Assembly (NCBI RefSeq): GCF_900176885.1
Contig: NZ_LT839648.1
Coordinates: forward strand, 3,018,403 to 3,060,103
From: Oceanobacillus senegalensis
GTDB taxonomy: Bacteria > Bacillota > Bacilli > Bacillales > Amphibacillaceae
Reading direction: 5' to 3'
DNA length: 41,701 nucleotides
The notes beneath the pieces were generated by a model. It had not been told where the DNA came from. It was given only the letters and a program-made list of their open reading frames with translations, and ran no database searches. Of this stretch, positions 13,405-24,348 are shown piece by piece. Numbering within the stretch: position 1 is the stretch's first letter; each line of letters opens with the position of its first letter. The translations under genes were made by a program, and so were the position numbers.

Positions 13405-14802
13405 GTGACTACCCATTCAACTGAAGACAATACAGCAACTAACAGCGCTGAAGATTATTCTTTAGATAGAGTTCCTCGCAACAAAAGGACTATGGGTTGG
13501 CTTAGTATAACAAATATCACCTTTGGTATCGCTACGGCTATCTTTTACTTTCAAATGGGTAGTGTTATGGCACTAAATTATGGTGCAATAAATGCCATTA
13601 TCTCTGCTATTTACGCTATTGTTGTTGCCGGTATTCTAGGTACTTTCATTGCTTATTTATCAGCTAAATCCGGGATGAACGTTAATCTACTTTCAAGAGG
13701 TGGTGGCTTTGGTTATATTGGAGCATCTTTAACCTCATTTATTTATGCCACTAATTTTATTATGTATTGTGCATTAGAGGGAATGATTCTCGTATCAGCT
13801 GTCCATCATTTCTTACCTATTATTCCAGAATGGATACTAATCGTCTTTTTTGGGTCCCTCGTCATTCCACTCAATTGGTTCGGAATTAAGCAATTAGATA
13901 AACTGCAGAAATGGTCACTACCTATATTTTTCTTATTTTTAATTGCCGCCATTATTATGAACTTTATAACCCCCTCTGTATACGAGGGTGACTTTTGGAC
14001 TTATATGCCGGAGGGAGTTCAGGTAGGTGGAACAGCATTACTATTTTGTATTGGAATGCAGCATGGTATTATGGGACTAACTCCACTTCTTGCCACTGAT
14101 TATGCCCGTTTTTTGAAACCAAAGGATACAAAAATCGGCATCTTAGCTATTGGGTTTATTCCTCAAATATTTTGCTTTGGTGTTATGGGAGGATTGGGGA
14201 TTTGGTTTGGTGTTCGTCTAGGAGAGCCAAACCCAGGTGTCTACATCGTACTACTACTCGGTGCGTGGGGGGCATTATTTACCATGCTAACCCAAATTAG
14301 AATTAATGTTACAAATATTTATAGTGGATCTTTATCACTAGCATCGTTTTTTGAAAACATTTTTAAATTCACACCAGGACGTCGATTTTGGGTCGTTGTA
14401 ACAGGTGTTTCAGCAATTTTCTTAATGCTTGGTGGTATTGTCAATCACTTGGAATTAGCGATGACCTTCCAAGGTGTTTTCCTATTGACCTGGGCTACTA
14501 TTCTTGTAACAGATGCCATTCTTATTAAAAGGATCCTGAAAATTGGCCCAGCGTATTACGAAGCGAGACAATCATACTTGCATAAGTGGAATCCTGTGGG
14601 TGTCGGATCCTTAGTGATTGCCAGTGGTCTAGGAACCATTGCAGCATTAGGGTTTATGGGAGAATTTTTGCGAAGCACTGCCGCTTTCTTTGCTTCGTTA
14701 TTGGCTGCAATTATCACACTCCTTATAGCTGTCTATACGAAAGGGAAATATTACGTTAAAGAAGAAGCGAATGATATTCCGAAAGAGGATTATATAAGAT
14801 AA
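13405..14802 (+). CDS. NCS1-family purine/cytosine-type permease
   Basis: This membrane transporter of 465 residues belongs to the nucleobase:cation symporter-1 family (CodB-like branch). About twelve helices are visible. The first begins MGWLSITNITFGIATAIFYF and includes the NCS1-type GSVMALNYGAI; later landmarks are LLSRGGGFGYIGASL, NWFGIKQLDKLQKWSLP and TPLLATDYARFLKP. Family members take up cytosine, purines, allantoin, hydantoins or thiamine precursors, and the sequence alone does not fix the substrate. No deaminase or hydantoinase lies nearby. The GTG start at 13405 has AAGGGAGATG upstream. The gene is alone and closed by a strong terminator. Confidence 0.85.
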   Translation: MTTHSTEDNTATNSAEDYSLDRVPRNKRTMGWLSITNITFGIATAIFYFQMGSVMALNYGAINAIISAIYAIVVAGILGTFIAYLSAKSGMNVNLLSRGGGFGYIGASLTSFIYATNFIMYCALEGMILVSAVHHFLPIIPEWILIVFFGSLVIPLNWFGIKQLDKLQKWSLPIFFLFLIAAIIMNFITPSVYEGDFWTYMPEGVQVGGTALLFCIGMQHGIMGLTPLLATDYARFLKPKDTKIGILAIGFIPQIFCFGVMGGLGIWFGVRLGEPNPGVYIVLLLGAWGALFTMLTQIRINVTNIYSGSLSLASFFENIFKFTPGRRFWVVVTGVSAIFLMLGGIVNHLELAMTFQGVFLLTWATILVTDAILIKRILKIGPAYYEARQSYLHKWNPVGVGSLVIASGLGTIAALGFMGEFLRSTAAFFASLLAAIITLLIAVYTKGKYYVKEEANDIPKEDYIR

Positions 14803-16548: not shown

Positions 16549-16929
16549 TTATAACCATTTTTTAAGTACTTCAATCTTGTCCGCCCAACCATATTTCGCA
16601 CCTTTGAACGCATAATCTTCTTTCTCAAATCCAGTATGGTCCAGATGTAAGTATGTTATATCTCCCTCTTGTCTTAGCGTCCATGTAATGATGGTGTTGA
16701 GCGGTCCACTAACCCATGTATAAGATAACTTATAAGGCTCATCCACCACCAATACTTCACTGTCTACGATTAAATCTATTTCGTCATTTCTAAACTGACA
16801 TTTGTATCCAACAATTGGTTTAAAGTTATTTTCCATGACCCATTGCGCCAGTGTCTCTGAATTTGTTAATGCGTCCCATACCTTATGGATAGGACTCTTA
16901 AATTCAAAATCTAGAGATATATCTGCCAT
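16549..16929 (-). CDS. SRPBCC (AHSA1-like) domain protein
   Basis: This 126-residue single-domain protein has the START/Bet v1-like fold that encloses a hydrophobic cavity. It begins ISLDFEFKSPIHKVWDALTN, continues with LAQWVMENNFKP, the strand-forming YTWVSGPLNTIITWTL, and TYLHLDHTGF and ends in a helix with GWADKIEVLKKWL, as family members do. It starts three bases after the stop codon of the ArsR-type regulator, a pairing repeated throughout Bacillus in which the regulator controls the SRPBCC gene. The ligand is unknown. Confidence 0.85.
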   Translation of the reverse strand: MADISLDFEFKSPIHKVWDALTNSETLAQWVMENNFKPIVGYKCQFRNDEIDLIVDSEVLVVDEPYKLSYTWVSGPLNTIITWTLRQEGDITYLHLDHTGFEKEDYAFKGAKYGWADKIEVLKKWL

Positions 16930-16932
16930 GAT

Positions 16933-17253
16933 TTATTCCTCCAATAAATTCTTTAGTAATACCGCTCTTTCATTCCAAAACTTCTCATAAAAGGATAACC
17001 AATCTTTTACTTCCTTTAAAGGAGCTGGATTTAGCCGATACCTGGTTTCTCTACCTAATCTACGGTTCGTTACTAAATCAGCTTCTTTAAGAATAGTTAA
17101 ATGTTTAGAAACTGCTGTACGACCCATTTGAAATTGAGCCGTTAATTCATGAAGGGGTAACTCTTCTGAATCTGCCAACAAGCGTATTAATTTACGTCTT
17201 GTCGGATCTGCGATTGCTACAAAAACATCTCGCTTTTGGTGAGTATTGTTCAA
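16933..17253 (-). CDS. ArsR-family winged-helix repressor (SdpR-like)
   Basis: This DNA-binding repressor of 106 residues opens with VFVAIADPTRRKLIRLLADS, has the helix-turn-helix LHELTAQFQMGRTAVSKHLT and the wing GRETRYRLNPAPLKEV. It contains no cysteines, so it does not sense metals through thiolate sites; similar proteins (SdpR type) lack metal ligands. The start is the TTG at 17253 with AGGGGGG eight bases upstream. It is the first gene of an operon with the SRPBCC protein, and a palindrome in its promoter region is the likely autoregulatory site. Confidence 0.85.
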   Translation of the reverse strand: MNNTHQKRDVFVAIADPTRRKLIRLLADSEELPLHELTAQFQMGRTAVSKHLTILKEADLVTNRRLGRETRYRLNPAPLKEVKDWLSFYEKFWNERAVLLKNLLEE

Positions 17254-17345: not shown

Positions 17346-17382
17346 AAAAAATGGAAGAGTACCACAGCACTCTTCCATTTTT
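17346..17382 (-). terminator. Terminator of the sugar-acid operon
   Basis: AAAAATGGAAGAGT pairs perfectly with ACTCTTCCATTTTT around an eight-base loop. It lies about 65 bp after the hxlA-like stop codon and shields the arsR promoter. Confidence 0.9.
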
Positions 17383-17447: not shown

Positions 17448-18065
17448 TTAAACCAACATGTCTTGCATTTCCCTAGCTACTTTTGCCGGATTTCCGGCTT
17501 TTGTTATAGCACTTCCTACAATAATAATGTCTGGCTTTTCTTTTACGATCTCTGGAAGGGTTTCTAAGGTAATTCCCCCAGCAACTGCAACTTCTAGGTT
17601 ATATCCTTCTACTAAGGAAAATAACTCTGTGTTAAAAGTTCCTTCTGATTGCTTGTCTTTTCCAACGTGTAAGCTTACAAGATTCACTCCAATATCCACT
17701 AGTTCCTTTATTCTATCATTGGAATGGCACTCTAATAAGTCTATCATGATTCGTTTGTTCTTATCCCTAGCAATATTTAAGGTATCTTTAATCGTAGAAA
17801 TGGCGGAAAATGCCATAACTGTTGTGATATCTACTCCTGCATTAAATGCCTGAAGGGTTTCATGTTTTCCAGCATCACAGGTTTTCATATCTGCCAAAAT
17901 TTCCTTATTCGGAAATTGTGCTCTCAACTCTCGAACAATCGCCATCCCATATTCCTTAATAACTCCTGTACCTACTTCAATTATGTCTATGCTTTCCTCT
18001 GTTTCTTTAACAAGCTGAAAACACCGTTCTTTCGATAAGCGATCTAAAGCCAACTGTAATTTCAT
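17448..18065 (-). CDS. 3-hexulose-6-phosphate synthase-like (HxlA/OMPDC superfamily) protein
   Basis: This TIM-barrel protein of 205 residues belongs to the orotidine-5'-phosphate-decarboxylase superfamily and is closest to HxlA, which makes 3-hexulose-6-phosphate from ribulose-5-phosphate and formaldehyde or the reverse. It has Asp8, Glu30, the DxKxxD motif at Asp59, Lys61 and Asp64 (ADMKTCDAG), and the phosphate-binding AVAGGITLETLP and IIVGSAITKAG. Two places differ from the HxlA sequences I recall: strand 4 reads TVMAFSAISTI, without the acidic pair (ED or DD), and strand 6 reads LHVGKDKQ, with Lys136 where HxlA has Tyr or Leu and 3-keto-L-gulonate-6-phosphate decarboxylase has Arg. It may therefore act on another sugar phosphate. 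It is the last gene of the operon. Confidence 0.72.
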   Translation of the reverse strand: MKLQLALDRLSKERCFQLVKETEESIDIIEVGTGVIKEYGMAIVRELRAQFPNKEILADMKTCDAGKHETLQAFNAGVDITTVMAFSAISTIKDTLNIARDKNKRIMIDLLECHSNDRIKELVDIGVNLVSLHVGKDKQSEGTFNTELFSLVEGYNLEVAVAGGITLETLPEIVKEKPDIIIVGSAITKAGNPAKVAREMQDMLV

Positions 18066-18080
18066 AATGACACCTCTAAT

Positions 18081-19031
18081 TTACCTTTCAATTGATTCCA
18101 TTTCACCTAAAAACTCTAAAACTTCTTCATAGTATGGTAATCCTTCATTATCACCCAACACGCTAACAACCATTGATCCAATCGTATTAGCAAAATAAAG
18201 CGTTCTCTCTAGAGACCATCCGTTTAAAATGCCGTATAAGAAACCTGCATTAAAACCATCGCCGGCCCCCACTGTGTCAGCAACCTTACTTGCTTTTACA
18301 GCAGGAGTCGTAATCGTTTCACCATCATAGTAGCCGACCGAGCCTTTATCTCCTAGTTTAATAGCAACATGAGAGATACCTAACGCTTTCGCCTTTTCAA
18401 TAATACGATCCGGTTCCTTTTCACCGATAATAATATCCATTTCATTGGCGCCTGCTAGTAAAATATCCACATGTGGTAGAATTTCAGACAAGACCTCGCT
18501 CGCTTCCTCTTTACTCCACATACGAAGGCGAATATTCGGATCAAAGGAAATTTTTAATCCATGTTTTTTCGCTAACTTTATTGATTTAAACATAACCCGT
18601 TTATTGATGTCACCGATTGCTGGATAGATTCCTGTTAGATGTAAGATCTTTGCCTTTTTAAAATAACCTTCATCCAAATCATCTGGTCCCAATGTTAAGG
18701 TAGGAGATTGGTCACGATAATAGAATGTTTTACCACTTCCATCCTCTCTGATCTCTTTAAAATTTAAAGAAGTTGGATACCCATCTACATGATCTACTTG
18801 CGATACATCAATTCCTTCTCCACGAGCAAATGTTTTAATATATTTCCCAAATTCGTCATTTCCTAAGCGACTAATCCACCCAGCCTTCAACCCTAGTCGG
18901 GAAACTCCAATTGCTAAATTCAACTCAGCTCCGCCAACCTTTTTCTCAAATCGATTCATAAATTTAAGTGGACCTGTCGAATCGGGATTAAATGTAATCA
19001 TTGCTTCTCCAATTGTAATGACGTCATTCAT
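18081..19031 (-). CDS. kdgK: PfkB-family sugar kinase, probable 2-keto-3-deoxygluconate kinase
   Basis: This ribokinase-fold enzyme of 316 residues should phosphorylate 2-keto-3-deoxygluconate to KDPG with ATP. It begins VITIGEAMITFNP, has the first PfkB signature GGAELNLAIGVSRLGLKAGW and the second, DTVGAGDGFNAGFLYG, with the catalytic aspartate. FYYRDQSPTLTL and SFDPNIRLRMWS are typical of KDG kinases. The eda gene in the same operon supplies the next enzyme and supports the assignment. The start at 19031 has GGAGG eight bases upstream; the ATG at 19046 precedes that site. It is separated from dctM by 104 bp and from the hxlA-like gene by 15 bp. Confidence 0.82.
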   Translation of the reverse strand: MNDVITIGEAMITFNPDSTGPLKFMNRFEKKVGGAELNLAIGVSRLGLKAGWISRLGNDEFGKYIKTFARGEGIDVSQVDHVDGYPTSLNFKEIREDGSGKTFYYRDQSPTLTLGPDDLDEGYFKKAKILHLTGIYPAIGDINKRVMFKSIKLAKKHGLKISFDPNIRLRMWSKEEASEVLSEILPHVDILLAGANEMDIIIGEKEPDRIIEKAKALGISHVAIKLGDKGSVGYYDGETITTPAVKASKVADTVGAGDGFNAGFLYGILNGWSLERTLYFANTIGSMVVSVLGDNEGLPYYEEVLEFLGEMESIER

Positions 19032-19135
19032 TCTATATACCTCCATGCCTATCTATTGTAACAACTTTTTATTACCCATTACCTGTAATTTACGGTAAAA
19101 CCTGAACTTAATCTATTTATCTTTCCGTCTTCCCC

Positions 19136-20425
19136 TTAGCCAAATATGCTAGGATTAATCATTTTCGGAATCGCAAACGCCAAATCAGGTAGAAATGCGA
19201 TAAGAAGCAAGACAACTAAAATAATAGCTAAGTAAGGAAGAACCGCAACAAATGATCTTTCTATCGATAAGTTTCCAATTTTTGCTGCTAGTAATAGCAC
19301 CAGTCCATATGGCGGTGTAGCAAGTCCGATGGCTAGTGTGATAACAATGATTAGACCTAATTGAACCGGTTCAATACCAAATTCAATTGCAGCTGGTAAG
19401 ACCATAGGGACAAATAAAATCATTGCAGGAATCGCATCCATAAATGTTCCAATAAATAGGAAGAAAAGAATAAGGATGAGAACAAAGACCCAGGGTGATC
19501 CTATATTATTTGTAAAGAAATCCTGTGCAATAGCACCTAATTGGTAATAACTCATCAATTCACCAAGCGCGCTTGCTGTTGCTAGTGCAAATAAAGAAAG
19601 AGAGCTTAGTGCAAGCGTATCCATTAAAATCTTAGGAAGATCATTAAGTTTCAGTGTTTTATAGTAAAACATACTAATTAATAGTGTATAAACTGATGCA
19701 ACGGCTGCCGATTCGGTTGCTGTGAAAAATCCGCTAATAATTCCACCAATAATAATAATCGGAGTAAATAAAGCTGGAAGAGATTCTAGAAATAACTTCA
19801 TAATCTTTCCAAATGGAACCCGTTCTTCTTTCGGGTAATTTCTTTTAACAGCAACAATATAAACGAATAACATCATACCAAGACCAATTAGAATTCCTGG
19901 AACAATACCACCCATGAATAACGCACCAATAGAGGCATTTGTTAGCCCTGCGAAAATAATCATTGGAATACTTGGTGGAATAATAACCCCAATTGTGGAA
20001 GATGCAGCTGTTACCCCTACTGCAGTTTCTTTGTCATAACCTTTCTTGGTCATACTAGGTATAAGCACTTTTCCCATACCCGCAGCATCTGCTTGTGCTG
20101 CACCTGAAACACCAGCAAACATCATTGATACTAAAATATTCGCATGTGCTAAGGCTCCTCGAATTGGTCCAACAATAGCCATAGCAAAATCAATTAATTT
20201 CTCGGAGATTTTCCCTGAATTCATTAAGTTCGCAGCTAAAATAAATAATGGAACAGCCAATAGAACAAAAGAATCTAAACCATTTACCATTTTCATTGGT
20301 ACGGTAGCTTCCGGTGTATACGGCATTCCAAAAATACCTAGTAAAGCTATGATTCCAATTACAAAAGCGATTGGAACACCGATAATCATGAGAACAAGAA
20401 ATAACCCTACTAATAAGATAGCCAT
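19136..20425 (-). CDS. dctM: TRAP transporter large membrane subunit DctM
   Basis: This integral membrane protein of 429 residues forms the transport pathway of a tripartite ATP-independent periplasmic-type transporter, which uses ion gradients rather than ATP. About twelve helices are visible, with the family landmarks PLFILAANLMNSG, GVSGAAQADAAGMGKVLIPSM, IIPPSIPMIIFAGL and IGLATPPYGLVLLLAAKIG. It begins inside the stop codon of dctQ (TGATG), so the two are translated together. Its length is normal. Confidence 0.93.
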   Translation of the reverse strand: MAILLVGLFLVLMIIGVPIAFVIGIIALLGIFGMPYTPEATVPMKMVNGLDSFVLLAVPLFILAANLMNSGKISEKLIDFAMAIVGPIRGALAHANILVSMMFAGVSGAAQADAAGMGKVLIPSMTKKGYDKETAVGVTAASSTIGVIIPPSIPMIIFAGLTNASIGALFMGGIVPGILIGLGMMLFVYIVAVKRNYPKEERVPFGKIMKLFLESLPALFTPIIIIGGIISGFFTATESAAVASVYTLLISMFYYKTLKLNDLPKILMDTLALSSLSLFALATASALGELMSYYQLGAIAQDFFTNNIGSPWVFVLILILFFLFIGTFMDAIPAMILFVPMVLPAAIEFGIEPVQLGLIIVITLAIGLATPPYGLVLLLAAKIGNLSIERSFVAVLPYLAIILVVLLLIAFLPDLAFAIPKMINPSIFG

Positions 20426-20910
20426 CAGTCAGTAACCTCCCTTGTTTTTAGCGCTTTCATATGATCCAATAAATGAGAGAGGGAATAGATAATCATCGTT
20501 CCCGCCATAATTGGAATAGCAATCCATACATACCCCATTTTCATCTCTGGGAGACTTGCCCATGTATAGTTCCAGAACTCGTTTACGACTTGAATTCCTA
20601 ATAAGAAAATAGCAATATTAAATACTATGAGAATTAAATCAATTACAATTTGTAAGACTGCTCCTTTTCCTCCCTTTAGTTTCTTTTGAAGTAGGTCAAA
20701 ATTGAAATGTTCCCTACGATTTACCATCACTGAGGCTCCCATTAAAATCGCCCATATAAATGAATAGTTAGCTACTTCTTCTGTCCAAATAACAGGAATT
20801 CCTAGATGCCTTGTAGCAATTTGGAAAATAACAACTAGAAAGAAAATACATAGAAATATAGCACCGAAAATCATCTGTACCTTATCAAGCATTTGCACAA
20901 AACGTTTCAC
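20425..20910 (-). CDS. dctQ: TRAP transporter small membrane subunit DctQ
   Basis: This four-helix membrane protein of 161 residues bridges the binding protein and DctM. The conserved start of the second region, IPVIWTEEVANYSFIWAILMGASV followed by NRREHFNFDLL, is the DctQ signature, and the last helices contain GYVWIAIPIMAGTMIIYSL. The stop codon overlaps the start of dctM by one base. Confidence 0.9.
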   Translation of the reverse strand: MKRFVQMLDKVQMIFGAIFLCIFFLVVIFQIATRHLGIPVIWTEEVANYSFIWAILMGASVMVNRREHFNFDLLQKKLKGGKGAVLQIVIDLILIVFNIAIFLLGIQVVNEFWNYTWASLPEMKMGYVWIAIPIMAGTMIIYSLSHLLDHMKALKTREVTD

Positions 20911-20935
20911 GATATTACCTCCTTAAGTCCATACT

Positions 20936-21964
20936 CTATTGATCCAGTTCATAAATATCGTTTAGTAAATCTTCTACACTAATTTCCTCTGCAAAATCAT
21001 TCAATATTGGTCTAGCAACCTCAATAAACGGCTCTCTATCAATCTCATTAACAATTGCACCCTCGGCAATCGCTTTTTCCTTATATTCTTCTTCTTGAGC
21101 AAGTGTTGCTTCACGCTCTGCTGCAACTGATTCCTCTGCAGCTTTTAGAATGATTTCTTGATGCTCTTCGGTATACTGGTCAAATTTCTCTCCATTAATG
21201 AGCATAAATCTAGTTGTAAAATCGTGTGCTGTCTCCGTAATATACTTTCCATTTGGTGTCGTATGATGTGCTTGTTGCACAAAGAATGGATAAGCATTTT
21301 CCGATGCATCAACAACATCCTGTTGCAGTCCTTGGTAGAGTTCACCCCAAGAAATGGATGAAGGGATTGCACCAGCTGTAACCCAGAAATCTGAAACAAC
21401 CCCAGATGTTTGTGTACGAAGAGAAACACCTTGTAGGTCTTCAACGGAATGGATAGGTTTCTTTCCATAATAATGTCTAACCCCCGCCGTCCAATAACCT
21501 AATACTTTAAAGGAATTATCCGACTTTTCATTAACCATTTGTGCTACCTTATCTCCTACTTTTCCATCCACTGCTTTTAACCAATGTTCATAACTATTAA
21601 ATAGATAAGGGGCGGAAAATAAATCAATCTCCTTAATTCCTGTTTGTGTCATAAATCCTGGAGAAACAATGACAACATCAGCAGCACCCAATTGAAGTTT
21701 TTCTACTAACTGTGATTCTTCCGTCCCAATTGTTCCAGCATGCACTTCAACTTCAATCGTTCCATTGGATTGTTTCTCCGCTACCTCCTTGAATTTCAAT
21801 AAACCAGCCTGATACGGGCTGTCTGGTGAAGTCTGGTTGTGTGCTGCGATAATCTTGATTTTACCGTCTCCATCAGAATCAACTTCTTTTGAATTACACC
21901 CAGCCAAAATCATTATTCCTAATAATACAGCTACAATGAACATTCCTTTAAACGCTTTCATCAT
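20936..21964 (-). CDS. dctP: TRAP transporter solute-binding lipoprotein DctP
   Basis: This extracellular binding protein of about 342 residues is anchored as a lipoprotein by the lipobox ILAGC near residue 23. The DctP fold is shown by IKIIAAHNQTSPDSPYQAGL, LGYWTAGVRHYYGKKPIHS and the region DLQGVSLRTQTSG, whose arginine normally holds the carboxylate of the ligand. SENAYPFFVQQAHH follows. The neighbours suggest the ligand is a sugar acid such as 2-keto-3-deoxygluconate or a hexuronate. Either of two consecutive ATG codons could be the start, behind AAGGGAG. Confidence 0.9.
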   Translation of the reverse strand: MMKAFKGMFIVAVLLGIMILAGCNSKEVDSDGDGKIKIIAAHNQTSPDSPYQAGLLKFKEVAEKQSNGTIEVEVHAGTIGTEESQLVEKLQLGAADVVIVSPGFMTQTGIKEIDLFSAPYLFNSYEHWLKAVDGKVGDKVAQMVNEKSDNSFKVLGYWTAGVRHYYGKKPIHSVEDLQGVSLRTQTSGVVSDFWVTAGAIPSSISWGELYQGLQQDVVDASENAYPFFVQQAHHTTPNGKYITETAHDFTTRFMLINGEKFDQYTEEHQEIILKAAEESVAAEREATLAQEEEYKEKAIAEGAIVNEIDREPFIEVARPILNDFAEEISVEDLLNDIYELDQ

Positions 21965-22022
21965 TCTGCTCCCTTCTTTAGTCCGATTTTGTGTATCTAG
22001 ATGGACAGCTTTTAGAAAAAAG

Positions 22023-22661
22023 CTATCCGTTTAGTTCTTTTAATTTACTAGTGTATTGTTTAGCTCTATCCGCTAATCTCGTATAATCCTCTTCGGTTTT
22101 TAATTGATTTGCATTCACTAAATTACTGCCAATTCCAACAGCGAAACAGCCGTTTGCAAGATATTCGTTCATGTTATCTATCGTAATTCCACCAGTTACC
22201 ATTGCTTGAACATGAGGAAGTGGTCCCAGAATATTTTTAATATAGTTTGGTCCTACAACATCTGCTGGGAAAACTTTTACCATTTGAGCCCCGTGTTCGT
22301 AAGCAGATAAAATTTCCGTTGGTGTCATTACACCTGGAATATTTAATATACCGTAACGATTAGTTAGTTTTAACGCTTCGACATTCAATGTAGGAGAAAC
22401 GATAAACTTGGCTCCCGCCATGATGACTGTCCTTGCAGTTTCAGGATCTAATACCGTTCCTGCACCGATATTTACTTCGTCTCCCATTTGGCTAACAGCA
22501 GTTTCAATAACACGCTCAACATTTGGTGTTTCTGCTGTGATTTCTACGTTCGTTACCCCACCATCGGCTAGCGCTTTCAAAATTGGAACGATATTTTCTT
22601 CATTGGACTTACGGATTACTGCAACAATTTTATTCTTTTTTATTTCATTTATAATTGACAT
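22023..22661 (-). CDS. eda: KDPG aldolase (2-keto-3-deoxy-6-phosphogluconate aldolase)
   Basis: This class I aldolase of 212 residues cleaves KDPG into pyruvate and D-glyceraldehyde-3-phosphate. VAVIR (Arg17) and NVEIT (Glu40) are the first active-site elements, followed by GAGTVLDPE, KFIVSPTLN, GVMTPTEI, the Schiff-base lysine in VKVFPAD (Lys129) and the phosphate site TGGI. The length matches the family. It sits 17 bp after the hxlB-like gene and 58 bp before dctP. An HKG/galactonate aldolase of the same family cannot be excluded. Confidence 0.9.
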   Translation of the reverse strand: MSIINEIKKNKIVAVIRKSNEENIVPILKALADGGVTNVEITAETPNVERVIETAVSQMGDEVNIGAGTVLDPETARTVIMAGAKFIVSPTLNVEALKLTNRYGILNIPGVMTPTEILSAYEHGAQMVKVFPADVVGPNYIKNILGPLPHVQAMVTGGITIDNMNEYLANGCFAVGIGSNLVNANQLKTEEDYTRLADRAKQYTSKLKELNG

Positions 22662-22678
22662 ACATTTGTATCTCCTTT

Positions 22679-23230
22679 TTACTCCAAATTGGCATGTTTT
22701 TGGTTTAAATTTTGGCTTTCCTTTGGATAATGTTCTAGTAAATAAACGACAATTGCATCCAATAGTAAGTGTGCTGATTGATCAAATTGACTTCCTAATG
22801 GTTGTATCGTTTCTGGTTCTTTTTCCAATCGTTTTTTCGTTGCAGCAGGAATAGCTACCGACTGATCCGCAATATTGCCTATAACGGAATTCTTATTCGT
22901 CGTTACGAGAGCTATTTTGGCATCCGCTTCCTTTGCTTTTTTTGCGTATTGAACGAGTGACCCCGTACTTCCAGAACCGGAAATAATGAGCAATAAGTCA
23001 TTTGGTTCAATGCTAGGGGTAATGGTTTCACCTACGACATAGACAGGATAATCACTGTGCATTAAGCGCATTGCAAATATTTTTCCAACTAGTCCTGAAC
23101 GCCCTGTACCTGAGATGAAGATTCTCTTAGCCTTCTGAACTTCCTCTGCTAATTCCTTTGTTTCATCTGCATTTATTTGCTTAACAACCTCATATACTTC
23201 GGTTACAACTGTATTTATCATTTGTTCCAT
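22679..23230 (-). CDS. 6-phospho-3-hexuloisomerase-like SIS-domain protein
   Basis: This 183-residue SIS-domain sugar-phosphate isomerase is closest to HxlB, which interconverts 3-hexulose-6-phosphate and fructose-6-phosphate. The landmarks are RIFISGTGRSGLVGKIFAMR, HSDYPVYVVGETITPSIEPND, LLIISGSGSTGSLV, IALVTTNKNSVIGNIAD and the C-terminal QPLGSQFDQSAHLLLDAIVV, all typical of the HxlB/PHI branch. In other Bacillaceae the gene is fused or adjacent to hxlA for formaldehyde fixation. Here it is the second gene of the operon, and the hxlA-like partner is six genes away at the other end. Confidence 0.82.
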   Translation of the reverse strand: MEQMINTVVTEVYEVVKQINADETKELAEEVQKAKRIFISGTGRSGLVGKIFAMRLMHSDYPVYVVGETITPSIEPNDLLLIISGSGSTGSLVQYAKKAKEADAKIALVTTNKNSVIGNIADQSVAIPAATKKRLEKEPETIQPLGSQFDQSAHLLLDAIVVYLLEHYPKESQNLNQKHANLE

Positions 23231-23246
23231 ATTAAATCTCCTTTAT

Positions 23247-24251
23247 TTAGCATGATTCCCTTGAGTTTAGTTTCGGTTCAAACCGATATATGTCCGGACT
23301 TATACGATAACTTTTATCAGTAATCCGATTAAGCAATAACTCCGCTGCTTTTTTCCCCATTTCAAATGCAGGCTGCTGAATCGTAGTTAAAGCCGGGCTA
23401 TAGATACTTGCATAGGATACCTCATCAATTCCGATTAGCGCTAAATCGTCCGGTATACGCACCGTATATTTTTTCGTAAAGGCCAAAATTTCATGTAGTA
23501 CCCTATCATTTAAGGCTAAAATCGCCTCTGGAGGGTTATCTTGTTCTAACATGTCCTTAACTACTGTCTGAATGCGACGAATCTCTCCCGTCATCAAATA
23601 GTCAGCGTTAAACGTCAATTGGTTATGTTCTAATGCTTTTTTAAAACCATTTATCCGCTCCAATCTAGGTGTAACCTTTCCTCTTATTGGGGGAGATAAG
23701 AGCCCTATATTCTTGTAACCCTTCCTCACAAACTCTTCCACAGCAAAAAAGGAAGCCATCTCATTATCCAATAAAACCGTATCAACTTCTAATCCAGGAA
23801 TAATTCTATCTAAAAAAACCAACGGAAATTTCGCATCGATTAATGATTGATAAAGCTCTATATTATCTCCCGTCGGAAATGCAATGATTCCATCTACTTG
23901 CTTGGATTGAAGCATTTCAATATAGCGCTTCTCCTTTTTCAAATCATCATCCGCATTACAGATAATCACATGAAAGTCTTTCTCATTACAAAAATCTTCA
24001 ATAGCTCGTATTACCTGAGTCGAAAAAACGTGTAAGATGTTTGCTACTATAACTCCGATTGTCATCGTTGATTTCTGCTTTAAACTTCTAGCAATGATAT
24101 TGGGGCTATATCCCAACTCCTTAATAGCTAGCTCGATACGCTCCTTCGTTTTTTCTCCCATATAATCGTAGCGCTTATTTAGATATTGAGAAACCGTGCT
24201 TTTAGATACACCAGCATGTTTCGCAACATCGGAAATAGTAATCCTTTTCAT
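23247..24251 (-). CDS. LacI-family repressor of the sugar-acid operon
   Basis: This regulator of 334 residues has the LacI N-terminal helix-turn-helix ITISDVAKHAGVSKSTVSQYLN and hinge SPNIIARSLKQK, followed by a periplasmic-binding-protein-like effector domain (IGVIVANILHVFSTQVIRAI to PALTTIQQPAFEMGKKAAEL). Its position as first gene of the KDG operon makes it a KdgR-like repressor released by a sugar-acid intermediate. AAGGAGATAA precedes the ATG. It should control its own promoter through the three AACCGTTT-like sites at 24288-24348. Confidence 0.85.
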   Translation of the reverse strand: MKRITISDVAKHAGVSKSTVSQYLNKRYDYMGEKTKERIELAIKELGYSPNIIARSLKQKSTMTIGVIVANILHVFSTQVIRAIEDFCNEKDFHVIICNADDDLKKEKRYIEMLQSKQVDGIIAFPTGDNIELYQSLIDAKFPLVFLDRIIPGLEVDTVLLDNEMASFFAVEEFVRKGYKNIGLLSPPIRGKVTPRLERINGFKKALEHNQLTFNADYLMTGEIRRIQTVVKDMLEQDNPPEAILALNDRVLHEILAFTKKYTVRIPDDLALIGIDEVSYASIYSPALTTIQQPAFEMGKKAAELLLNRITDKSYRISPDIYRFEPKLNSRESC

Positions 24252-24287: not shown

Positions 24288-24348
24288 ACTAAATCGGTTT
24301 AGTAAAACGGTTTAGTTGAATTATAATATAGATGTAACCGTTTTACAA
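24288..24348 (-). promoter_or_regulatory. Promoter of the sugar-acid operon with three LacI-type operators
   Basis: On the minus strand -35 TTGTAA (24343-24348) and -10 TATAAT (24320-24325) are 17 bp apart. Three related pseudo-palindromes with a central CG surround them: ACTAAATCGGTTTAGT at 24288-24303, TAAAACGGTTTA centred at 24308/24309, and TGTAACCGTTTTACA at 24333-24347 over the -35. This is the form of a LacI-family operator, placed to repress the whole operon. Confidence 0.8.

Follow-up and report, generated by a model that had tools for sequence, protein, structure and literature searches.

In a 41,701-nucleotide stretch of the Oceanobacillus senegalensis genome (hereafter the window), an eight-gene operon may encode import of a 2-keto sugar acid, with 2-keto-D-gluconate the most probable one, and its conversion to ribulose 5-phosphate and CO2 without a redox step. 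Its key proteins are homologs of 3-hexulose-6-phosphate synthase (HPS) and 6-phospho-3-hexuloisomerase (PHI), which we refer to as HxlA-like and HxlB-like. Judged from comparative sequence evidence, the chances that the operon has this function are about even. A redox-neutral 2-ketogluconate route that passes through 3-keto-6-phosphogluconate, bypassing KguD, Edd, and Gnd, is a more specific proposal whose chances we place a shade under even. No catabolic route of this kind was found in the literature searched.

The eight open reading frames (ORFs) all lie on the minus strand within positions 17448-24251 and are separated by gaps of 15-89 bp or overlap by one base. From the 5' end, the order is lacI, hxlB-like, eda-type aldolase, dctP, dctQ, dctM, pfkB-type kinase, and hxlA-like. 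An earlier sequence-only reading had described this arrangement, with the hxlB-like gene second and the hxlA-like gene last among genes for a tripartite ATP-independent periplasmic (TRAP) transporter, a kinase, an aldolase, and a LacI regulator, and all of these ORFs and families are confirmed here.

Predicted pathway

In the proposed scheme, DctPQM would import the 2-keto acid and the PfkB kinase would phosphorylate it at C6 to give a 2-keto-hexonate 6-phosphate, likely that of 2-ketogluconate. The HxlB-like protein may then shift the carbonyl from C2 to C3, a reaction analogous to the conversion of fructose 6-phosphate to 3-hexulose 6-phosphate. Beta-decarboxylation of the resulting 3-keto-6-phosphogluconate by the HxlA-like protein would yield ribulose 5-phosphate and CO2, and RpiA could pass the ribulose 5-phosphate into the pentose phosphate pathway. 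3-Keto-6-phosphogluconate is an accepted intermediate of 6-phosphogluconate dehydrogenase. Given a D-series compound and ribulose 5-phosphate as the product, the substrate would be 2-keto-D-gluconate or its C3 epimer. The aldolase is predicted to form a side branch: the kinase would also produce 2-keto-3-deoxygluconate (KDG) 6-phosphate, which the aldolase would cleave. Related operons in which the TRAP set is exchanged may instead rely on an Ldh_2-family protein that oxidizes a 2-hydroxy acid to the 2-keto acid; with D-mannonate, for example, oxidation at C2 would again produce 2-keto-D-gluconate.

Conservation of the locus

A contig scan with HxlA gave 133 confirmed relatives, from which 80 loci were kept. 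These loci are the basis of all counts out of 80 and, being related to each other, are not independent events. The HxlA-like gene is present in all 80 by construction, since the loci were found through it. The HxlB-like and LacI genes each occur in 78, PfkB and DctM each in 77, and the main type of DctP in 68, and the two loci that lack HxlB and LacI (L009 and L019) are cut contigs. The linkage of HxlA and HxlB to the operon exceeds chance. Accidental linkage, which the sequence-only reading had named as an outcome that would refute it, is thus contradicted by the joint conservation of HxlA, HxlB, and LacI. The same reading took the separation of two normally adjacent or fused genes as a peculiarity, but they are neighbors in 46 of the 80 loci and separated in 32 (the two cut contigs have no HxlB). 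The split is a lineage variation, one of several gene orders.

This distribution also bears on whether the locus is simply an operon for KDG import and cleavage in which the HxlA and HxlB genes are passengers. A KDG-kinase-like PfkB protein and an aldolase of the type that cleaves 2-keto-3-deoxy-6-phosphogluconate (KDPG) are both encoded, and the aldolase accompanies 58 of the 80 loci. However, no genes of the family are more constant than HxlA (by construction) and HxlB, and the aldolase is not in the operon in the other 22 loci, three of which are cut contigs. Furthermore, three minimal operons without kinase and aldolase keep HxlA and HxlB, and many residues of these two proteins are invariant, so that their genes appear to be under selection. 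We consider the passenger explanation very improbable. KDG, which the sequence-only reading offered as one option, imported directly, is not supported as the core substrate either, given the operons without aldolase and the minimal operons; as a 3-deoxy sugar it would also have no 3-hydroxyl for the predicted HxlB and HxlA chemistry.

A held-out, class-wide sample of 398 genomes contained 137 with an HxlA match at E 1e-30 or better. The 14 best loci, which include those of the window's own genome and of the genome that carries locus L030, have the set of HxlA residue switches described below, down to 43.35% identity, while the next 16, at 43.27% identity and below, have the canonical set, giving a clean divide in the 30 best loci. 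For the 13 loci outside the window's own genome, wider flanking sequence was retrieved; because L175 duplicates L030, 12 of them count as new. Three loci (L184, L185, and L186, from one genus with genomes of 2.3-2.7 Mb) have the minimal operon LacI-HxlB-DctPQM-RpiA-HxlA. One member of the same genus as the window (G421) has a single match in the sample, of the canonical type, which indicates that the operon type is patchily distributed.

A second, canonical HxlA-HxlB pair

The host genome (4.3 Mb, 99.99% complete) encodes an adjacent, canonical HxlA-HxlB pair elsewhere, with an HxlR-family gene upstream (PF01638, 127.6 bits). Apart from the operon's own proteins, the two are the only PHI-type gene over the cut-off and, leaving aside a far stronger OMPDC-type match at C4:1844504, the only other OMPDC/HUMPS-family protein of the genome. 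For comparison we used the 120 nearest relatives of each member of this pair, sets that sample Bacillales-type HPS and PHI only. Mean identity of the window's HxlA-like protein is 61% with operon-type sequences and 40% with the 120 canonical relatives. FastTree phylogenies place the operon-type HxlA (80 sequences; support 0.996-1.0) and HxlB (78 sequences; support 0.967-0.974) apart from the 120 canonical sequences in each case, and the solved HPS and PHI sequences that were included fall outside the operon clades. The closest named relatives of both HxlA proteins, operon and canonical, are from Oceanobacillus species. These results read as a separate role for the operon proteins from that of the canonical pair.

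Residue switches in the HxlA- and HxlB-like proteins

The HxlA-like protein (positions 17448-18065, minus strand; 205 amino acids) has an OMPDC/HUMPS fold and is a predicted 3-keto-hexonate-6-phosphate decarboxylase. It scores 257.9 bits against the HPS equivalog model TIGR03128 (cut-off 200), and most of the named proteins among the 120 HxlA matches listed bear the name 3-hexulose-6-phosphate synthase. The catalytic residues D8, E30, D59, K61, D64, D109, and H133 are invariant in 198 operon-type rows (184 distinct sequences) and in the 120 canonical sequences. Around them, R9, G34, Y39, C63, M84, L111, and K136 are switched relative to canonical HPS. R9, K37, and C63 are found in all 184 distinct operon-type sequences, Y39 in 183, and K136 in 181. 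The canonical sequences have Leu at position 9 (120 of 120), Met at position 63 (118), and Glu at position 39 (120), and all 120 have Tyr or Leu at position 136. The 12 new held-out loci all keep R9, G34, K37, Y39, C63, M84, and L111, and ten keep K136; the substitutions are Ile in L181, which also has S162, and Leu in L187.

An excerpt of PMC5980557 tabulates 24 active-site columns of HPS and of the related 3-keto-L-gulonate 6-phosphate decarboxylase (KGPDC), which are separated in that excerpt by P34 and by the column of KGPDC Arg139. In these columns the acidic, lysine, and histidine residues of the window protein are those of HPS. Differences from both tabulated HPS rows occur at G34 (Pro in HPS), M84 (Leu), A85 (Gly), L111 (Ile), K136 (Leu or Tyr), and S185 (Gly). 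Ala is common at position 85 in canonical HPS, and Ser at position 185 also occurs in 3f4w. HPS would be expected from the same excerpt to combine P34 with Leu or Tyr at position 137 in 3ajx numbering (136 here), where the window has G34 and K136. None of the 198 operon-type rows has P34, and all 16 canonical held-out loci have both P34 and Y136. K136 aligns with Arg139 of KGPDC, a position occupied by Val in the KGPDC variant 1xbx. For the KGPDC residues Glu112, Arg139, Thr169, and Arg192 given in the excerpt, the window has Asp, Lys, Ala, and Ser.

The HxlB-like SIS isomerase (positions 22679-23230, minus strand; 183 amino acids), a predicted 2-keto/3-keto hexonate-6-phosphate isomerase, shows a corresponding pattern. 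It exceeds the cut-off of the PHI model TIGR03127 (237.5 versus 160 bits). Glu150 of the PxGxxFE motif, which we take to be the catalytic base of PHI, is Asp in the window. D150 and H154 are present in all 77 operon-type sequences and Q148 in 76, while canonical PHI has E150, L154, and L148 in 120 of 120 sequences each. All 12 new held-out loci have Q148, D150, and H154. The residue code of the operon type is R9, G34, Y39, C63, and K136 in HxlA with Q148, D150, and H154 in HxlB, and it allows re-annotation of the HxlA/HxlB family. The sequence-only reading is probably right in proposing that these LacI-controlled proteins catalyze unassigned steps in which a phosphorylated sugar acid is the substrate, considering the conserved linkage, the canonical set elsewhere, and the residue switches in both proteins.

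Operator and regulon

A tandem LacI-type operator, ACTAAACCGTTTTACTAAACCGATTTAGT, matches a 16-bp consensus, ACTAAAYCGRTTTAGT, at positions 24288-24316 (minus strand). Allowing at most two mismatches within 350 bases upstream of LacI, this consensus is found in 70 of 76 loci (exactly in 34), compared with 16 of 760 windows drawn at random from these loci and one of 380 shuffled upstream sequences. Exact sites occur in 31 of 50 genomes of relatives, and a backward control gave none. The only exact site in the genome of the window is the one preceding this operon. In two Halobacillus genomes the operator recurs at a distant second site, in front of an operon that encodes Ldh_2, an alternative DctPQM, Zn-ADH, UxuA, and a short-chain dehydrogenase/reductase (SDR). 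The SDR is mannonate-oxidoreductase-like and is complete in L135 and cut by the end of the retrieved sequence in L136. The occurrence of this operator before a mannonate-type operon links the HxlA/HxlB operon with the metabolism of hexonates and not of formaldehyde.

The regulon evidence has to be set against the possibility that these are ordinary HPS and PHI enzymes, which fix formaldehyde, or run in reverse and split fructose 6-phosphate into ribulose 5-phosphate and formaldehyde, and merely share a sugar-acid operon. Both proteins pass the NCBI equivalog cut-offs, the catalytic residues of the suprafamily are retained, and RpiA fits a ribulose-phosphate product of this chemistry as well. 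However, the genome already has the canonical pair with its HxlR gene, residues that are invariant in the 120 canonical HxlA and 120 HxlB sequences are replaced by other invariant or near-invariant ones, and the sole exact operator site of the genome is here, joined in two relatives by a site before the mannonate-type operon. Profile scans of the eight operon genes also detected no formaldehyde-generating or HxlR-type gene. Ordinary HPS and PHI activity therefore seems unlikely to us.

Kinase, aldolase, and transporter

The PfkB sugar-acid kinase (positions 18081-19046, minus strand; PF00294) is a predicted 2-ketogluconate/KDG kinase. Its best families are KDG/KDGal kinases, with scores below the cut-offs (NF040938, 242.2 versus 400 bits; NF052444, 115.1 versus 400), and its relatives in the PDB are 4du5 and the Thermus KDG kinase 1v19. 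Y110, R111, R173, and D257, which we presume to be KDG-kinase residues, are present in 77 of 77 sequences when aligned to 1v19. The genome has six further PfkB matches, four of them weak (<45 bits); the strong two correspond to ribokinase and 1-phosphofructokinase. According to an excerpt of PMC6651773, the kinases for 2-ketogluconate and KDG are homologs that accept each other's substrates, and the former takes several 2-keto acids. This precedent for both substrates suggests that the same operon could also use KDG through the aldolase.

That aldolase (positions 22023-22661, minus strand), a KDPG/KHG type predicted to serve as the side branch for KDG 6-phosphate, exceeds the KDPG aldolase cut-off of TIGR01182 (183.2 versus 156.05 bits) and falls below that of PRK06552 (227.2 versus 238). 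In L020, L049, L059, and L176, a second PfkB gene adjoins the aldolase gene, and a DapA-family protein is encoded at the end of the operon. These variants are a possible clue that the first kinase serves HxlA and HxlB and the second serves the aldolase.

All three transporter genes are on the minus strand. DctP, the solute-binding protein (positions 20936-21964; PF03480), has a fold that matches TRAP binding proteins, with 4x8r as the nearest PDB sequence, and its predicted ligand is a 2-keto sugar acid. DctQ, the small permease (positions 20425-20910; PF04290), has a GTG start, and DctM, the large permease (positions 19136-20425), scores 398.6 bits against TIGR00786 (cut-off 268.45).

Variable genes of related operons

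A gene of the RpiA cluster is within the retrieved sequence in 45 of the 80 loci and in the same-strand operon in 35. Two cluster members and one relative from a minimal operon were scanned, and all three pass TIGR00021. RpiA in related operons points to D-ribulose 5-phosphate as the product. Ldh_2-family proteins (PF02615), which interconvert 2-hydroxy and 2-keto acids, occur in nine of the 80 loci, none of them with the main DctP; none of the 68 main-DctP loci has Ldh_2, and three cut-contig loci have neither. The held-out loci divide in the same way, six with Ldh_2 and six with the main DctP. From this mutual exclusion, the dehydrogenase seems to replace direct import of the 2-keto acid. 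A zinc-type alcohol dehydrogenase (Zn-ADH) of the L-galactonate/L-idonate dehydrogenase type accompanies Ldh_2 in five of the nine loci and in five of the six held-out ones, and mannonate dehydratase does so in four and five, respectively.

The Zn-ADH type, present in five of the 80 operons alongside the nine with Ldh_2, would suit an L-series pathway in which 2-keto-L-gulonate 6-phosphate becomes 3-keto-L-gulonate 6-phosphate and then L-xylulose 5-phosphate, as in the use of ascorbate or L-gulonate. KGPDC is a solved relative of HxlA, and K136 sits at its Arg139. Yet there is no UlaE- or UlaF-like epimerase among the operon genes named (unclustered neighbors are not all named), the RpiA genes of 35 operons point to D-ribulose phosphate, and KGPDC Glu112, Thr169, and Arg192 of the excerpted table are not kept. 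An L-series substrate is improbable on balance. Another D-series 2-keto sugar acid phosphate, such as that of 2-keto-D-galactonate or the C3 epimer, would follow the same logic and perhaps give another pentulose phosphate. The residue switches and the operon logic leave the stereochemistry unfixed, and the kinase in the PMC6651773 excerpt is broad enough to allow it. The RpiA association, on the other hand, favors D-ribulose 5-phosphate, and fructose 6-phosphate, the natural partner of PHI, has the arabino configuration of 2-ketogluconate. We regard a different D-series acid as rather unlikely.

Two further genes vary among the relatives. In 25 of the 80 loci the operon also encodes a small cupin (PF07883), mostly right after DctM (for example, L026:14763-15044), which might act as a mutarotase or epimerase of sugar acids. 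A Gfo/Idh/MocA oxidoreductase gene adjoins the operon in 16 (for example, L014:10631-11614) and could feed a keto sugar acid into the pathway.

Several observations weigh against the proposed 2-ketogluconate pathway. Besides the passing of both equivalog cut-offs, HxlA keeps the HPS-type D109 and A162 and not Glu112 and Thr169 of KGPDC. K37 also occurs in five of the 120 canonical sequences and in 3ajx and is consequently less diagnostic. Position 136 varies among HPS relatives (Leu in 3ajx; Thr in 3f4w, a named putative HPS), and K136 is itself replaced by Ile, Met, or Leu in three of 184 operon-type sequences and in two of the 12 held-out loci. The frequent aldolase needs a second branch to explain it, and the structures nearest to DctP come from assorted TRAP binding proteins. 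RpiA is outside this operon (the one RpiA of the genome is encoded elsewhere), is missing from all nine Ldh_2 operons, and is not in a same-strand operon in 45 of the 80 loci. The main TRAP type and an Ldh_2 operon coexist in the two Halobacillus genomes, such that the exclusion applies per locus and not per genome. Finally, the nearest kinases in the minimal-operon genomes are encoded elsewhere and are 37-39% identical.

Comparison with known pathways

The kgu pathway of Pseudomonas (kguE-kguK-kguT-kguD, regulated by PtxS) resembles the operon in its LacI-family control and in the action of a kinase homologous to KDG kinase on imported 2-ketogluconate. In kgu, reduction by KguD leads from the 6-phosphate to 6-phosphogluconate, whereas this operon has no reductase among its genes and has a predicted isomerase and decarboxylase; the transporters also differ (KguT versus TRAP). 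Many LacI-family operators look alike, and a shared PtxS core is weak evidence. The PtxS site in the excerpt of PMC11678583, TGAAACCGGTTTCA, has inner ten bases, AAACCGGTTT, that are also present in the operon-family operator of relatives such as L018.

KGPDC belongs to the same suprafamily as HxlA and shares with it the predicted loss of CO2 from a 3-keto-hexonate 6-phosphate and a basic residue at 139. They differ in the identity of that residue (Arg in KGPDC, Lys here), at the other three positions of the excerpted table, and in the product, L-xylulose phosphate for KGPDC and predicted D-ribulose phosphate for HxlA. HPS and PHI of the ribulose monophosphate pathway have in common with the operon pair their families, the HxlA catalytic residues, and a carbonyl shift between C2 and C3. 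They differ by the switched residues in both partners, by HxlR in place of LacI control, by the sugar-acid operon, and by formaldehyde in place of the predicted CO2.

The hexuronate/KDG pathway (UxaC, UxuA, KdgK, KdgA) has kinase and aldolase types like those of the operon, and some variant operons of relatives contain UxuA and genes resembling mannonate oxidoreductase. HxlA and HxlB are not known to contribute to this pathway. Its dehydratases were not found in the genome of the window as far as tested: profile searches detected no UxuA and no altronate dehydratase (PF04295). Two full ILVD_EDD proteins pass dihydroxy-acid dehydratase cut-offs and miss the edd cut-off, and a third match is a 27-bit fragment. 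The sequence-only reading, which had noted neither a dehydratase nor an isomerase, thus holds across the genome for the dehydratases tested, but the glucuronate isomerase UxaC is encoded elsewhere. KDG would accordingly have to come from outside or via a family outside those searched. The UxaC gene directly adjoins a 6-phosphogluconate dehydrogenase gene (C4; L144:8294-11210), and genes for a GPH-type symporter and another TRAP set are close by.

If the proposed pathway is correct, proteins of the operon type that are automatically named HPS and PHI would not be formaldehyde enzymes, and these names would mislead when used as markers of formaldehyde assimilation or to choose parts for synthetic methylotrophy. 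Pentose phosphates would then also be reachable from sugar acids by a route free of redox steps. The pathway would also suggest that a C2/C3 ketose isomerase and an aldolase became a keto-acid isomerase and a decarboxylase by limited residue switches.

Transcription signals and neighboring genes

The LacI-family regulator (positions 23247-24251, minus strand; PF00356 and PF13377) is the first gene of the operon. Upstream of it on the minus strand is a sigma-70-type promoter-like site, TTGTAA-17-TATAAT (positions 24320-24348; 10 of 12 consensus matches), and the tandem operator is directly downstream of its -10 box. A terminator-like hairpin with a 16-pair stem follows the hxlA-like gene (positions 17347-17382, minus strand). 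From the combination of these three signals, the eight genes read as one transcription unit. The promoter and terminator are consensus matches, of kinds not more frequent in the region than in shuffled sequences (19 versus a mean of 27.8 and 4 versus 4.5, respectively). Within the promoter spacer, TGTAAAACGGTTACA (positions 24333-24347) is near what we take to be the consensus of the cre site for catabolite repression, but it is one base too long.

Just downstream of the operon, positions 16549-17253 encode an ArsR-type regulator followed by an AHSA1-family protein. This pair is preceded by a 12/12 promoter-like site and looks like an ordinary independent unit. Further along, an ORF of 465 amino acids at positions 13405-14802 is permease-like with many helices and has no Pfam match at E 0.001.

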